A stretch of DNA of 39,236 bases, taken from an uncultured Rhodospirillales bacterium (GTDB lineage Bacteria > Pseudomonadota > Alphaproteobacteria > Azospirillales > Azospirillaceae). This document shows positions 8,566 to 39,236 of this stretch, in pieces. A model generated the notes under the pieces. That model was not told where the DNA came from. It ran no database searches and was given only the letters and a program-made list of their open reading frames with translations. The translations under genes were made by a program, and so were the position numbers. The stretch covers positions 1-39,236 of the forward strand of contig CAIZDL010000001.1 of the NCBI GenBank assembly GCA_903931735.1, in the 5' to 3' direction. How positions within the stretch are numbered: the first letter of the stretch is position 1; every line of letters starts with the position of its first letter.

Positions 8566-11127
8566 TCAATACAAACCGCTGGTGCCAACGTCGTCGGGGA
8601 TGGTCGGCGGCGGGGACACGGGCCGACCGGGCATCGCATAACTCGGGGCCGCCGGCTCGCCCAAAATCGGGGGCGAGGCCACCGCTGTCGGTGCGGTTAC
8701 GCCAAGGCTGCCGGTATAAAGATCCGTGCCGGTCAGGGCCGGGTCGCTATCGGGGTTGAGCGGTGCGCCCGGCTCCAACTGGCTGGGGCCGAGGCCGATG
8801 TTACCACCCAAAACCGGCGCTTCCGGCTCGGCGCCGGGCTCGGTGCCGGGAAGGTAGGCCTCCCAAATCAACTTTCGGCTGCCATACTCGGCAAGGCGGC
8901 CGGTTTCGGCATCCACCCGCACCAAGCGCACGCCCTTCGGCACCCGGAACGGGCTGGCCGGCTTGCCCTTGAGCGCCTCCGCGATAAAGCTTTCGAAGAT
9001 CGGCACCGCCGTCGAGCCGCCGGTCTCGCGGTCGCCCAGCGATTGGGGCTGATCGAAGCCAACATAGAGCCCAACCACCAAATCGGGCGAAAAACCGACA
9101 AACCAGGCATCGTTGCTGTCATTGGTGGTGCCGGTTTTGCCGGCGAGCGGACGGCCAAGCGCCGCCAGCCGCGCGGCGGTGCCCCGCTGCACCACGCCGG
9201 TCATGATATTGACGATTTGATAGCAAGTGCGCGGATCTTCGATCTGCTCGCGGGTATCGGGCAAATCGGGAGCGACCAGATCGGGCGTCCAGGCCATGCC
9301 GGCGCAGCCGGTGCAGGGGCGGTCATCGTGACGGTAAATGGTCTTGCCGTTACGGTCCTGAACCCGGTCGATGATGGTCGGAGTGATGCGCTTGCCGCCA
9401 TTATCGAGCATGGCATAGGCGGTAACCATGCGCAAAACGGTGGTCTCGCCCGCGCCCAGCGCCATGGGCAGGTAGGGCTGAAAATTATCGATGATGCCAA
9501 ACTTCTCGACCATCGCCTTGATTTTATCCATGCCCACGCGGTCGGCCAGCCGCACCGTCATGAGATTGCGCGATTTCTCGATGCCAACCCGAAGCGGAGT
9601 CGGCCCGTAATAGGCTTGGTGATAGTTCTCCGGCCGCCAGACCGGCTGGCCATGACCGGGATCATATTCAAACGGCGCATCAAGGATCAGCGACGAGGGG
9701 GTGAAGCCGTTATCGAGGGCGGTTAAATAAACAAACGGCTTGAACGCCGAGCCCGGTTGGCGCATCGCCTGGGTGGCACGGTTAAACTGGCTCATGGTCG
9801 GGCTGAAGCCGCCACTCATGGCCAGAACCCGCCCGGTGTGCGGGTCCATGGCCACCAAACCACCCTGAACCTCGGGGATTTGACGCAGACCAAACCCCTC
9901 CACGCCACCGCCCAACGCCTCCACCAGCACAATATCGCCCCGGGCGGGCTTGACCCAGCGCAATTCGGCGGCGGGAATCCGCCCCTTATCGCCATTCGAG
10001 AAGCCGATCACCGCCTCTTCGCCGCTCCGGCCCTTGCCGCTGGCGCCGGGGGCATACTCCAGCACCGTTGCCAGCCGCCACGCCTCACCGCCCTTGGGCA
10101 CCGCCGTTGTGGCCAATTGCTGTTGCCAAGCCTCGGGGTTTCGCACCCGCGCCACCGGCCCGCGCCAGCCATGACGGCGGTCATAGGCGATCAAGCCCTT
10201 GCGCAGCGCCCGGGTCGCGATTTCCTGCAAGCCGGGATCGAGCGTCGTGCGCACCGAAAGCCCGCCCTCATAAAGCTTGGTATCGCCGAAATGCTTCGAT
10301 ATCTCCCGCCGCACCTCTTCTGAAAAATATTCGGCGGTGACCTGCTCGGTGATGGAGCGCCGGCGAATCTCCAGCGGCTCGGCAATCGCCGCCGTGACCT
10401 CGGCAGCGGAGATGTAGCCATCTTCGGCCAGCCGCCCGATAACCCAGTTGCGACGGCCAACAGCGGCATCGTGCTGCCGCTCGGGGTTGTAATTGTTGGG
10501 CGCCTTGGGCAAAGCCGCAAGAAACGAGGCTTCGCCAACGGTCAACTCATCCAGCGATTTGTTAAAATAATTGAGCGCCGCCGCAGCCACGCCATAAGAC
10601 CGATTGCCGAGAAAAATCTCATTAAGATAAAGCTCGAGAATTCGGTCCTTCGACAACGCCTGCTCGATGCGCAGTGCCAAAATCGCCTCTTTAACCTTGC
10701 GGGCGATCGAGACCTCATTGGTCAAAAGAAAGTTCTTTGCTACCTGCTGCGTGATGGTCGAGGCGCCCATCGGCCGGCGGTCGCTGTGCATATGTTCAAA
10801 GTTGGTAATCGTCGCCCGGATCACGCCCTGGATATCGATGCCCGGATGGTCGTAAAAATTCTTGTCCTCGGCCGCCAGAAACGCATGAACCACCCGCTTG
10901 GGCATGGCCTCGATCGGGATGAACACCCGGCGCTCCGACGCAAATTCCGCCAGCAAACGGCCGTCGCCGGCATGAACCCGGGTCACCGTCGGCGGCTCAT
11001 AATCCACCAGCCGGTTATAGTCGGGCAAATCGCGGCCATAGTGGTAGAGCACCCAATAGAGCCCGCCCATCCCGGCCAGGACGACAAAAAACAGCAGCGC
11101 CAGCAGCCTCAGAAAGACCCGTCCCAT
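8566..11127 (-). CDS. mrcA: Penicillin-binding protein 1A (bifunctional transglycosylase/transpeptidase)
   Basis: The 853-aa class A PBP has one N-terminal membrane helix (LLALLFFVVLAGMGGLYWVL), then a glycosyltransferase 51 domain (about residues 50-230) with AAEDKNFYDHPGID, GASTITQQVAKNFLL, RKVKEAILALRIE and ILELYLNEIFLG, then an OB-like insert, then the transpeptidase domain with QPGSAFKPF (catalytic Ser), SRN and KTGTTNDSNDAW. The C-terminus is a long Pro/Ala-rich tail. It polymerises and crosslinks peptidoglycan on the periplasmic side. The ORF track start at 11163 adds 12 residues (MPGNGAGLGGAK); I prefer the Met before GRVFLRLL because the membrane anchor follows directly, but the Shine-Dalgarno evidence is weak for both. 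Confidence 0.96.
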   Translation of the reverse strand: MGRVFLRLLALLFFVVLAGMGGLYWVLYHYGRDLPDYNRLVDYEPPTVTRVHAGDGRLLAEFASERRVFIPIEAMPKRVVHAFLAAEDKNFYDHPGIDIQGVIRATITNFEHMHSDRRPMGASTITQQVAKNFLLTNEVSIARKVKEAILALRIEQALSKDRILELYLNEIFLGNRSYGVAAAALNYFNKSLDELTVGEASFLAALPKAPNNYNPERQHDAAVGRRNWVIGRLAEDGYISAAEVTAAIAEPLEIRRRSITEQVTAEYFSEEVRREISKHFGDTKLYEGGLSVRTTLDPGLQEIATRALRKGLIAYDRRHGWRGPVARVRNPEAWQQQLATTAVPKGGEAWRLATVLEYAPGASGKGRSGEEAVIGFSNGDKGRIPAAELRWVKPARGDIVLVEALGGGVEGFGLRQIPEVQGGLVAMDPHTGRVLAMSGGFSPTMSQFNRATQAMRQPGSAFKPFVYLTALDNGFTPSSLILDAPFEYDPGHGQPVWRPENYHQAYYGPTPLRVGIEKSRNLMTVRLADRVGMDKIKAMVEKFGIIDNFQPYLPMALGAGETTVLRMVTAYAMLDNGGKRITPTIIDRVQDRNGKTIYRHDDRPCTGCAGMAWTPDLVAPDLPDTREQIEDPRTCYQIVNIMTGVVQRGTAARLAALGRPLAGKTGTTNDSNDAWFVGFSPDLVVGLYVGFDQPQSLGDRETGGSTAVPIFESFIAEALKGKPASPFRVPKGVRLVRVDAETGRLAEYGSRKLIWEAYLPGTEPGAEPEAPVLGGNIGLGPSQLEPGAPLNPDSDPALTGTDLYTGSLGVTAPTAVASPPILGEPAAPSYAMPGRPVSPPPTIPDDVGTSGLY

Positions 11128-11765
11128 CTTTGCACCACCAAGCCCCGCACCATTTCCCGGCACTGCCGGTTATAGCTCAGGTGGCGGAGAAATCCCACGG
11201 GACAATCGCACATTCCAAACCGCCGATTACGCCGTTTCGGCCTTAATATTTTTAACAAGATACTGTAGTATCGCTGGAATGAGTTTTCCGCGCGCTGCCT
11301 GGAGCCTCCGCCCTTGCCCAGCATCCCGCCCACCGCGCCGACGCTAAGATATCTGGCGCTGCCCCCTCCCGGCAGCGTGGCGAGGCCCAACGCCGGAGGC
11401 GTTTCTAAACCGGACACCGGAGGCGTTTCTAAACCGGACACCGGAGGCGTTTCTAAACCGGACACCGGAGGCGTTTCTAAACCGGACACCGGAGGCGTTT
11501 CTAAACCGGACACCGGAGGCGTTTCTAGACCGGACACGGGAGGCGTCTTCAAGGCTGCGGTGTCCGCCGCCGAACCACGGGGGGCAACCGCCGGAACTGG
11601 GTTGAGTGGCGGCTCCAGCGCGGCATTTGCAGCGCAAAGTATCTCCCAGGAGCACCTCGGCTCCGGCCTCCACATCGAGCCGTGGTCGGCGGCACTCAGT
11701 TCCTACCGCAGCGCGGCGGCCTTACCCGCATCCACCACCCACGGCAAAGGGATATTGGTTTGACC
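11128..11765. other. 638-bp region without a convincing gene
   Basis: This stretch separates the PBP1A start from a response-regulator gene transcribed the other way. It is dominated by a 24-nt tandem repeat. ORFs run through it on both strands (11109..11675 minus, 11314..11763 plus), but these are open mainly because the 24-nt unit contains no stop in several frames, and the flanking peptide has no recognisable domain. The stretch 11185-11280 is AT-richer (TTAATATTTTTAACAAGATACTGTAG) and may hold the promoter of the PBP1A gene or of a divergent transcript. Confidence 0.55.
11393..11549. repeat. 24-nt tandem repeat, six copies plus a partial
   Basis: The unit CCGGAGGCGTTTCTAAACCGGACA begins at 11393, 11417, 11441, 11465, 11489 and 11513, the sixth with GTTTCTAGACC, and a partial seventh follows at 11537. 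Exact identity of the central copies indicates recent amplification. The unit contains GTTT-CT-AAAC, flanked by CCGG on both sides. If translated on the plus strand it would give GGVSKPDT repeats, but no start or domain supports translation. Confidence 0.93.
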
Positions 11766-35665: not shown

Positions 35666-36064
35666 ATGCACGCCAGCCACACCCCAGGGCCGTGGCGGAT
35701 CGCGGGCAACGAGATCCGCGGTGCCGCCCATGAGCATTCCAAAGCCGCATACGAAACGGCGGCCACCGTCGTCCCGGTCCACCGGACCGAGGTATCGGCA
35801 GCCGGCGTGACGCAAGAGCAGCGGAGCCATGAGGTCGAGAAGGCCAATGCACACCTGATCGCGGCGGCTCCCGAGCTGCTCGCCGCCCTCGAAACCTTAC
35901 GGTTGGCGGTCAGCCACGCCGTCGAGCGCGGCCTGCTTGAAGAGGCCCCGCTGGACCCGCGCACGGCCCTCGATGCCCAGGAATGGATGCGGACACAGCT
36001 TAGCGAGGCGTCCCGTCATGCGAAATCGGCCATTGACCGGGCCTGGGGTCGCGGCGTGTCCTAA
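35666..36064 (+). CDS. Phage-type small protein (HTPGPW/NAHLIAAAPELLAAL)
   Basis: The 132-aa product starts MHASHTPGPWRIAGNEIRG and later reads KANAHLIAAAPELLAALETLRLAV. Small proteins with this H-T-P-G-P-W opening and the NAxLIAxAPELL block are frequent in phages and prophages of proteobacteria; their role is not known. No phage structural gene is nearby, so it could be a remnant or a domesticated gene. GGGG lies just upstream of the ATG at 35666. It is followed after 37 nt by the 9-residue repeat protein on the same strand, which may be its partner. Confidence 0.75.
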   Translation: MHASHTPGPWRIAGNEIRGAAHEHSKAAYETAATVVPVHRTEVSAAGVTQEQRSHEVEKANAHLIAAAPELLAALETLRLAVSHAVERGLLEEAPLDPRTALDAQEWMRTQLSEASRHAKSAIDRAWGRGVS

Positions 36065-36101
36065 GTCCCTACGATGACGAACAAAGAAGGAGGCCCCGGC
36101 G

Positions 36102-36494
36102 ATGAGTGGGGTTACTTACGACAAGCCCGTAGTCTCAACCTCCCGCCATCAGCCGGTTGCCGATACCAACCGTCGTGAGCCGGTGAGGGATACCAATCAC
36201 CACCAGCCGGTCGCGGACACCAACCGCCATGAGCCGGTAAGGGATACCAATCAGCACCAACCGGTCGCGACCCCCCGCCGGCATGAACCGGTAAGCGATA
36301 CCAACCACCACCAGCCGGTCGCGGGGGCCAATCGCCACGAACCGGTGGCAGACACCAACCACCACCAGCCAGTGGCAGGCACCGACCCCCACAGGCCAGT
36401 CGCCGATACCAATCACCACCACCCCGTATCAGACACCAACCGCCACGAGCCGGTGGTATCCAACGTCGTTCACGGCCCGGGGCCGCCCGCTTGA
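36102..36494 (+). CDS. Protein made of thirteen 9-residue repeats (xPVxDTNxH)
   Basis: The 130-aa product is 7 residues (MSGVTYD), then thirteen 9-residue units, then GPGPPA. Units include QPVADTNRH, EPVRDTNHH, QPVADTNRH, EPVRDTNQH, QPVATPRRH, EPVSDTNHH, EPVADTNHH and HPVSDTNRH; twelve end in His and one in Arg, and Q-type and E-type units alternate. There is no signal peptide, membrane helix or Cys. The many histidines invite a metal- or pH-dependent role, and the rigid period suggests an extended or solenoid shape, but no function is known to me. GGAGG lies 9 nt before the ATG. Its 3' end overlaps the convergent bacteriohemerythrin gene by 25 nt. The minus-strand ORF 36135..36422 is the mirror of the repeat. 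Confidence 0.8.
   Translation: MSGVTYDKPVVSTSRHQPVADTNRREPVRDTNHHQPVADTNRHEPVRDTNQHQPVATPRRHEPVSDTNHHQPVAGANRHEPVADTNHHQPVAGTDPHRPVADTNHHHPVSDTNRHEPVVSNVVHGPGPPA
36123..36474. repeat. 27-nt tandem repeat coding for the 9-residue units
   Basis: A unit of 27 nt, often CAGCCGGTCGCGGACACCAACCGCCAT-like, repeats thirteen times with exact spacing (13 x 27 = 351 nt) and substitutions mainly in a few positions. Copies alternate between two subtypes (CAGCCGGT and GAGCCGGT starts), so a 54-nt pair is the likely unit of duplication. Confidence 0.88.
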
Positions 36495-36925
36495 TGGCGC
36501 ATCAAGTAGTTGACGAACAACTTATCTTCGGCCGACTCGTGCTGGACCAGCCAAGAAGCCAGAAAGGCTTGAATTTCCCGGATCAGCCCGACCCGGCCCG
36601 TTTCGAAGCCATAAATAAACTGGGTGAGCGACGAAAAAAACTGGCAGTGAGATAGCATGTGCTGATCAAAGAGCGGGTAACGGATGCTCTGCATCAGAGT
36701 CTCTTCATGCCCGAAATGAACAAGCACATAGTCGGTGATATCGCATAGAACCTCGCCGATCTCGGTGGCATTTTCCGAATCGACAAGGGCCTCAAGCCGG
36801 TTAATAATATCCACAATGCCTTGGTGCTCGTGGTCGATCACCGGGTGGCCGGTTTGGTGCTCGTCCGTCCATTCGATATGCATGAAGGCGCCCTGGCGTC
36901 CCATTTTCACTGTCGTTGTCGACAT
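36470..36925 (-). CDS. Bacteriohemerythrin
   Basis: The 151-aa protein is a second hemerythrin: IEWTDEHQTGHPVIDHEHQGIVDIIN (first His ligands), VHFGHEETLM (His and Glu), FDQHMLSHCQF (His pair) and LVQHESAEDKLF (final His and Asp). It is not a close copy of the other hemerythrin in the window. It could bind O2 for sensing or storage. Its C-terminal Ala-Gly-Gly-Pro-Gly-Pro tail is coded by bases that overlap the 3' end of the 9-residue-repeat gene. Several in-frame Met codons exist (36925, 36904, 36883); the last, MHIEWTDEH, is where family homology begins, so the true start may be later than listed. Confidence 0.92.
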   Translation of the reverse strand: MSTTTVKMGRQGAFMHIEWTDEHQTGHPVIDHEHQGIVDIINRLEALVDSENATEIGEVLCDITDYVLVHFGHEETLMQSIRYPLFDQHMLSHCQFFSSLTQFIYGFETGRVGLIREIQAFLASWLVQHESAEDKLFVNYLMRHQAGGPGP

Positions 36926-38022: not shown

Positions 38023-38520
38023 ATGCTGCGGGGGTTTGACGGCCACGACGATGATGGCTCCGGCGAAGGGCGGGGGGGGCGCTCCGACCATCAGGAGCGC
38101 TTGCACAACATCATTCGCTCTCGGGAGAGCACGAGAGGCGAAGGGGGCCGAAGTGACGGGAGCCGGGCGGACCGCGATCACCGGTTCGAGCATCGGCCTT
38201 CCCACGCGGGTCATAACGATGGTTCGCACCGGGGCGCGGGCGACGCTGCGGCTCACAATTGGCAACGGAGCTGGCAGGACGCTGGCGCGTTGCCGCCGGT
38301 TTACGAAGCCCCGCTCGACGCCTCGCCGTGGTGGGAATCAATCAAGGTGCTGGTGGTTCTGGGCCTGACCATCTTCGGGTCGCTCTATGGCGTCTATGCG
38401 CTGAACGGCTACCTCGAAGGCCAGCACAAAGAAACGCCGCTCTATGGCGACACCGCCGCCCCGCCACCCGGCCGGGGCTCCGGCCCCCCCAACATTAGCT
38501 GGGGGAGCGCGAAGCACTAA
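38023..38520 (+). CDS. Hypothetical single-pass membrane protein, 165 aa
   Basis: No family recognised. The first 95 residues are hydrophilic, with many Arg, Asp, Gly and His (FDGHDDDGSGEGRGGRSDHQ) and probably disordered. One membrane helix follows (WWESIKVLVVLGLTIFGSLYGVYAL, about 103-127), then a short tail (PLYGDTAAPPPGRG). It is likely to be anchored with its N-terminus in the cytosol. GGTGGGG lies before the ATG. Its stop is followed directly by a 14-nt repeat. Confidence 0.7.
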   Translation: MLRGFDGHDDDGSGEGRGGRSDHQERLHNIIRSRESTRGEGGRSDGSRADRDHRFEHRPSHAGHNDGSHRGAGDAAAHNWQRSWQDAGALPPVYEAPLDASPWWESIKVLVVLGLTIFGSLYGVYALNGYLEGQHKETPLYGDTAAPPPGRGSGPPNISWGSAKH

Positions 38521-38559: not shown

Positions 38560-38955
38560 TCAGAGTTTTTCCTGGAGCGGCACTTTGTCTTCAGCCGGCA
38601 CTTGGCCGTGGTTCCAGCCCACAGTCTCCAGCGCGGCGGCAAGCTTGCCGAACTGCCCGCCGAGCTTGCTCTTGGCTTCCTCCGTCGCGGCATAATAGCT
38701 CTGTTCGAGTTGTTGCTCGTCCACCGCCATGCGCTCATCGTGAGGAACTTGGCCGTGGTTCCAGCCAATGGTGTTGAGCGCCGCCGCGAGCCGGCCGATA
38801 TCGCCCCCAAGACCCGACTCCTGCCCTGCTCCCGTGGTCGGATAGGCTGAGGAGACGACGGGAGGCTGACTCTCCGCAGGATTTTTGAGCGTAACCGAAT
38901 CGATCACCGCTGTATTGGCGACAAAGCCGCCCTGCGACGCAAAAACTGTTTTCAT
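38560..38955 (-). CDS. Hypothetical protein with duplicated GWNHGQVP motif, 131 aa
   Basis: Two halves repeat: LGGDIGRLAAALNTIGWNHGQVP near residue 60 and LGGQFGKLAAALETVGWNHGQVP near residue 105, separated by a charged helix (DEQQLEQSYYAATEEAKSK). Each is a short amphipathic helix followed by GWNHGQVP. I know no family with this signature. The N-terminus (MKTVFASQGGFVANTAVIDSVTLKN) has no signal peptide. A GGAGAAAT site lies about 8 nt before the ATG at 38955. Possible roles include a binding scaffold with two identical sites. The ORF track start at 39222 includes unrelated upstream sequence. Confidence 0.78.
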   Translation of the reverse strand: MKTVFASQGGFVANTAVIDSVTLKNPAESQPPVVSSAYPTTGAGQESGLGGDIGRLAAALNTIGWNHGQVPHDERMAVDEQQLEQSYYAATEEAKSKLGGQFGKLAAALETVGWNHGQVPAEDKVPLQEKL

Positions 38956-39236
38956 CTCATATTTCTCCAACGACGATTCATTCCACCAAACAACCATCCT
39001 AGCGTCTAATCCGTCAACATCAAGTGCGGTCCTGCCCTTAGCTACGGAAGGCGCGAACCATCTCCCGGGCCTGCTCCCGAAACTCCGGATGCTCCAGACC
39101 TTGCCTATCCGGTTAACGCAGACACCCACTACATGTTGGGTGCGCCCAATCGCCGGAGTAGAGTTCAGCGTAGGTCGGCGCCTCAGCCCCGCCCGCGATC
39201 CCCAGCAATGATCTGAAGGCATTGAACGGGTAGAAG
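38956..39236. other. Right-edge region without a supported gene
   Basis: No gene could be supported in the last 281 bases. The plus ORF 38885..39211 and the upstream part of minus ORF 38560..39222 are rich in rare or mixed residues and lack ribosome-binding sites. Confidence 0.4.

Follow-up and report, generated by a model that had tools for sequence, protein, structure and literature searches.

The locus considered here raises the question of whether an open reading frame that consists almost entirely of short tandem units is a gene and, if so, what kind of protein it encodes. It occupies positions 36102–36494 of the plus strand of the window, by which we mean the whole 39,236-nucleotide stretch of DNA that was analyzed. 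The reading that we favor, with a probability of about 0.4, is that the product, a cytosolic repeat protein rich in His, is disordered, under selection, and restricted to its lineage, and that it plausibly acts as a weak multivalent metal ligand.

Organization and conformation of the repeat protein

Re-reading of the DNA gave a His-rich nonapeptide-repeat protein of 130 aa, in which MSGVTYD is followed by thirteen nine-residue units and then by GPGPPA. The architecture of 7 + 13 × 9 + 6 residues in the original prediction was therefore exact in coordinates, frame, and length. The thirteen 27-bp units (36123–36473, plus strand) have the consensus [QE]PVxDTNxH and a DNA super-period of 54 bp. 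Units 1–5 read KPVVSTSRH, QPVADTNRR, EPVRDTNHH, QPVADTNRH, and EPVRDTNQH; units 6–10 read QPVATPRRH, EPVSDTNHH, QPVAGANRH, EPVADTNHH, and QPVAGTDPH; and units 11–13 read RPVADTNHH, HPVSDTNRH, and EPVVSNVVH. Unit 1 (36123–36149, plus strand) is of the PVVST type that also occurs in a paralogue described below, and unit 13 (36447–36473, plus strand) is of a diverged PVVS type. His was found at position 9 in 12/13 units, as had been claimed, which gives the regular placement in tandem units that is expected of a His-rich repeat. The consensus PV..DTN..H had been described as strict; this is true of PV (13/13 units), but it overstates the conservation of DTN, which is intact in only 8/13. Similarly, the alternation of Gln and Glu at the start of successive units is perfect for units 2–10 only, and units 11–13 start with R, H, and E.

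The identity of the protein to itself was 0.46 at lag 9 and 0.62 at lag 18, and both values lie far above the maximum of 0.24 obtained at any lag from 2 to 39 in 10,000 residue shuffles. At the DNA level, Tandem Repeats Finder reported a 54-bp (two-unit) array with 5.7 copies and a 75% match.

The protein contains 18 Pro (14%) and 17 His (13%), has a GRAVY score of −1.29, and lacks Cys, Trp, Phe, Leu, and Ile altogether; its N-terminus has no signal-like features. AlphaFold2 produced a model with a mean pLDDT of 53 and no secondary structure, although a model made from a single sequence is weak evidence for disorder. Judged from the composition, the N-terminus, and the featureless model, the protein is most likely an intrinsically disordered, very hydrophilic chain that is located in the cytosol.

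The original prediction had instead envisaged a regular fiber or solenoid. A β-solenoid or fiber with two units (18 residues) per coil, and with the His residues stacked in a ladder, would explain the Q/E alternation and is consistent with the higher protein-level identity at lag 18 than at lag 9. Two-sided RTX β-rolls have 18 residues per coil, and the first and last units of the array differ, as caps might. However, duplication of a 54-bp block also explains the 18-residue period (DNA-level identity is 0.71 at lag 54 vs 0.61 at lag 27), and the only regular hydrophobic residue of the unit is a single Val, which always follows Pro. The AlphaFold2 model contains no strand, and a Foldseek search with this low-confidence model returned no fold match. 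The idea thus received no positive support, and we regard it as unlikely.

Relatives, neighbors, and origin

Homologue searches covered the genome that contains the window (G000), 99 relatives, and 82 family, 385 class, and 399 phylum genomes, as well as the contigs of 84,980 species (searched with peptide and two-unit patterns), viral contigs, plasmids, and phages. Because the window itself carries the strict pattern, the pattern scans were able to detect such repeats. These searches identified no convincing relative outside the protein's own genome, and their sole survivor was a short paralogue within that genome, on contig C217. The repeat gene was not recovered from the four remaining genomes of the genus; a scan of these and of 77 further genomes of the family yielded only two one-mismatch matches (in G443 and G035), and the G443 locus, when read in one frame, does not show the repeat. 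A match between the paralogue and contig C39 of genome G083 (E 6e-5) contained stops and lacked the nine-residue period. Inspection of the translations of weak matches showed them to be RTX, low-complexity, antisense, or chance matches, and the plasmid and phage matches had only the nine-residue period or the composition in common with the repeat protein.

Nor did the protein match any Pfam, NCBIfam, or PHROG family over cut-off. The best Pfam match (DUF2742) scored 16.1 bits, which is below the cut-off of 22.7, and the best PHROG match (phrog_38550, E 0.0019) was dismissed as short because it spans only 18 residues. No sequence relative was present in the PDB, and literature searches found no description of such a protein. 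The orphan status assigned to the protein was upheld in the genus, the family, the sampled class and phylum, the 84,980 species, Pfam, NCBIfam, and the PDB. On its sequence, the protein would be classed with short-period His-rich repeat proteins, outside every curated family tested.

The paralogue (C217, 393–584) is a 63-aa protein that begins MTPNRQPVASTVHHQPVVSTTHHEPVTSTIHHSAVVSTSHRQPV and has its own Shine-Dalgarno sequence, AGGAGGAGG. Its units (QPVASTVHH, QPVVSTTHH, and EPVTSTIHH) have the same nine-residue period, and there are ~4 of them, of ST type, as against the 13 units, of DTN type, in the 130-aa protein. The resemblance of unit 1 of the longer protein to the PVVST units of the paralogue suggests that the PVVST type is ancestral and that the DTN units were derived from it. 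Because the best tandem period at the DNA level is 54 bp, the most recent duplications probably copied a Q-type and an E-type unit together as a pair. The array would have grown by duplication of the 27-bp unit first and of 54-bp pairs later, and comparison of the units indicates that their amino acid sequence has since been kept by selection.

Both neighbors named in the original prediction were recovered. A small phage-type protein with a ANAHLIAAAPELL motif (phrog_1273, E 7e-14) is encoded at 35666–36064 on the plus strand, 37 nt upstream of the repeat gene, with which it is possibly co-transcribed. The convergent gene at 36470–36925 on the minus strand, the 3′ end of which overlaps the repeat gene by 25 bp, encodes a bacteriohemerythrin (NF033749, over cut-off). 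A homologue of the latter (57% identical) is present on contig C227 of a congeneric genome, G002, where it adjoins a homologue (L078:5157–5570) of the window gene at 38560–39222. The repeat gene is absent from this locus, and a PBP1A-like gene lies downstream of the hemerythrin gene, at the site expected for the repeat gene; the PBP1A gene of the window itself is at 8566–11163. As the G002 locus keeps the hemerythrin gene without the repeat gene, comparison of the two sequences identifies the repeat gene as a lineage-specific gain or as a gene lost in other sampled species.

A gain of this kind might have come from a phage or mobile element. The repeat gene would then be a moron, an accessory gene that moves together with the phage-type gene upstream and encodes a linker, decoy, or binding protein. 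The two genes lie on the same strand, the upstream gene matches phrog_1273, searches of the remaining four genomes of the genus recovered neither, and the C217 paralogue lies ~280 bp from a dispersed, many-copy element. On the other hand, no similar protein was found in phages or viral contigs, no further phage genes were recognized around the repeat gene, and the ending of contigs in dispersed repeats is an assembly effect. We consider such an origin improbable.

The dispersed element occupies 39095–39236 of the window and C217:1–114, and it is present in at least 40 copies, nearly all of them at contig ends; it probably represents a mobile element whose copies interrupted the assembly. Two other genes near this end of the window encode proteins of note. 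The product of 38560–39222 (minus strand) is a small protein of no known family with two GRLAAALNTIGWNHGQVP-type repeats, and that of 38023–38520 (plus strand) is a 165-aa protein whose N-terminal half is rich in His, Asp, and Arg and which has one hydrophobic segment and no Pfam match.

The host and a possible role in metal binding

Contigs C43 and C153 of the same genome encode proteins that match the MamK, MamM, MamP, MamQ, and MamB models over cut-off, together with MamE-, MamO-, and MamT-like proteins that fall below the model cut-off. Magnetochrome domains were detected in both G000 (nine matches) and G002. Because G000 contains magnetosome genes and magnetochrome domains, the host is probably a magnetotactic member of the Alphaproteobacteria. 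It has 32 hemerythrin-type matches, within a range of 28 to 42 per genome across the five genomes of the genus. Its setting appears to resemble that of magnetotactic Azospirillaceae, a group with some members that deposit calcium carbonate inside the cell (PMC11773610).

If the product is the disordered cytosolic protein that we favor, it would most plausibly work as a flexible, multivalent ligand array: a His recurs every nine residues, flanked by Asp, Asn, and Thr, and each would contribute weak, additive binding of divalent metal ions or of a partner. A putative role in buffering metal or iron is reasonable, given the probable magnetotaxis of the host and its many hemerythrin-type genes. 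The absence of Cys and of any canonical metal motif counts against binding of metal. A more specific proposal is that a lineage-specific His-ladder protein serves to buffer iron or another divalent metal, or to deliver it, in a magnetotactic host that may form minerals, and that the number of units tunes affinity. We think this distinctly unlikely. None of the contigs on which magnetosome genes were seen (C43 = L087, C153 = L086, and C65) contains the repeat gene, and because this gene is absent from the magnetochrome-bearing G002, any role that it has is not general to magnetotaxis. Were metal binding true, a magnetotactic bacterium would have one more accessory component for handling metal, and the paralogue would provide a natural comparison (~4 vs 13 units, ST-type vs DTN-type).

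Prion octarepeats and Plasmodium HRP2 are His-rich, disordered, metal-binding repeats. The repeat protein resembles them in having short, His-containing tandem repeats that are likely disordered, but it is unrelated to them in sequence and its metal binding is putative. With MamJ-type magnetosome proteins, which are low-complexity and Glu-rich, it has in common a repetitive sequence, a lineage-specific distribution, and a probably magnetotactic host; it differs from them in being encoded outside the magnetosome cluster and in being rich in His instead of Glu. A mamE-like gene and mamK flank L087:1306–3051, which encodes a 581-aa protein rich in Ala, Pro, and Val at the site expected for MamJ. 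This protein contains a stretch of 20-residue (60-bp) repeats and has no Pfam or NCBIfam match.

The reading frame and other nonapeptide repeats

An array of this kind could also be a non-functional open reading frame over a DNA repeat, or the shadow of a mirror ORF (36135–36422) on the minus strand, which is likewise open and has a pN/pS below 1 (0.48). Among the 11 core units, pN/pS was 0.34 in the plus frame and 1.1–1.6 in the other four frames, and within the Q-type and E-type classes it was 0.24 in the plus frame. Neutral simulation gave a mean of ~1.06, and 0/2,000 runs reached the observed 0.34 or 0.24; as pN/pS was derived from unit-to-unit comparisons that share ancestry and the simulation used a star phylogeny, the simulated probability is inexact, but its direction is clear. 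The original prediction had raised the prospect that the mirror frame is the one under selection. The plus frame is better supported, because its pN/pS is lower than both the mirror value and the neutral mean, and a mirror value below 1 would be expected from shadowing of the plus frame, since codon boundaries are partly common to the two.

Third codon positions of the units vary most (Mann-Whitney P 0.006), and the GC content by codon position (0.73/0.47/0.73) is like that of neighboring genes. A strong Shine-Dalgarno sequence, AAGGAGG (36087–36093, plus strand), precedes the plus-frame ATG by 8 nt, and the same plus-frame peptide pattern is kept in the paralogue. A scan for promoters and terminators around the gene found no terminator-like site and one promoter-like site, at chance level. 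A non-functional or shadow frame is thus very unlikely, and the open reading frame most likely, on these sequence features, encodes a genuine protein, one of two members seen of a family found in this genome alone. The protein illustrates cleanly the case of a repeat protein that is restricted to one taxon, whose units show measurable purifying selection, and that has a second family member in the same genome.

The original prediction knew of no family with this period, but nine-residue units occur elsewhere. RTX repeats are nonapeptides (PMC7354457, PMC6891781), and tblastn found nine-residue GDNSASSAT / NQSAATNTG arrays in phage-type proteins (Acinetobacter phage fLi-Aba02, Salmonella plasmid pCFSAN000929, and a Eubacterium eligens plasmid). 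That the protein is an RTX-type secreted calcium-binding repeat (GGxGxDxUx) is extremely improbable: it shares with RTX proteins a tandem nine-residue period and Asp/Asn in most units, but it has almost no Gly, lacks a Gly-rich loop, has a single Val as its sole aliphatic core position, and has no Pfam or NCBIfam match, it has an invariant Pro-Val and a His in nearly every unit, and the absence of the GGxG(N/D)Dx(L/I/F)x consensus from its units refutes membership. The GDNSASSAT / NQSAATNTG proteins, some matches to which are antisense to an annotated gene, share the nine-residue period but differ in their Ala/Ser/Thr/Gly composition and in having their own N- and C-terminal domains, with no unit in common; the likeness in period is convergent.

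Elsewhere in the window, a 24-bp repeat (11393–11546; 6.4 copies, 98% match) lies immediately beyond the start of the PBP1A gene, and a minus-strand ORF that overlaps this repeat translates into ETPPVSGL repeats.
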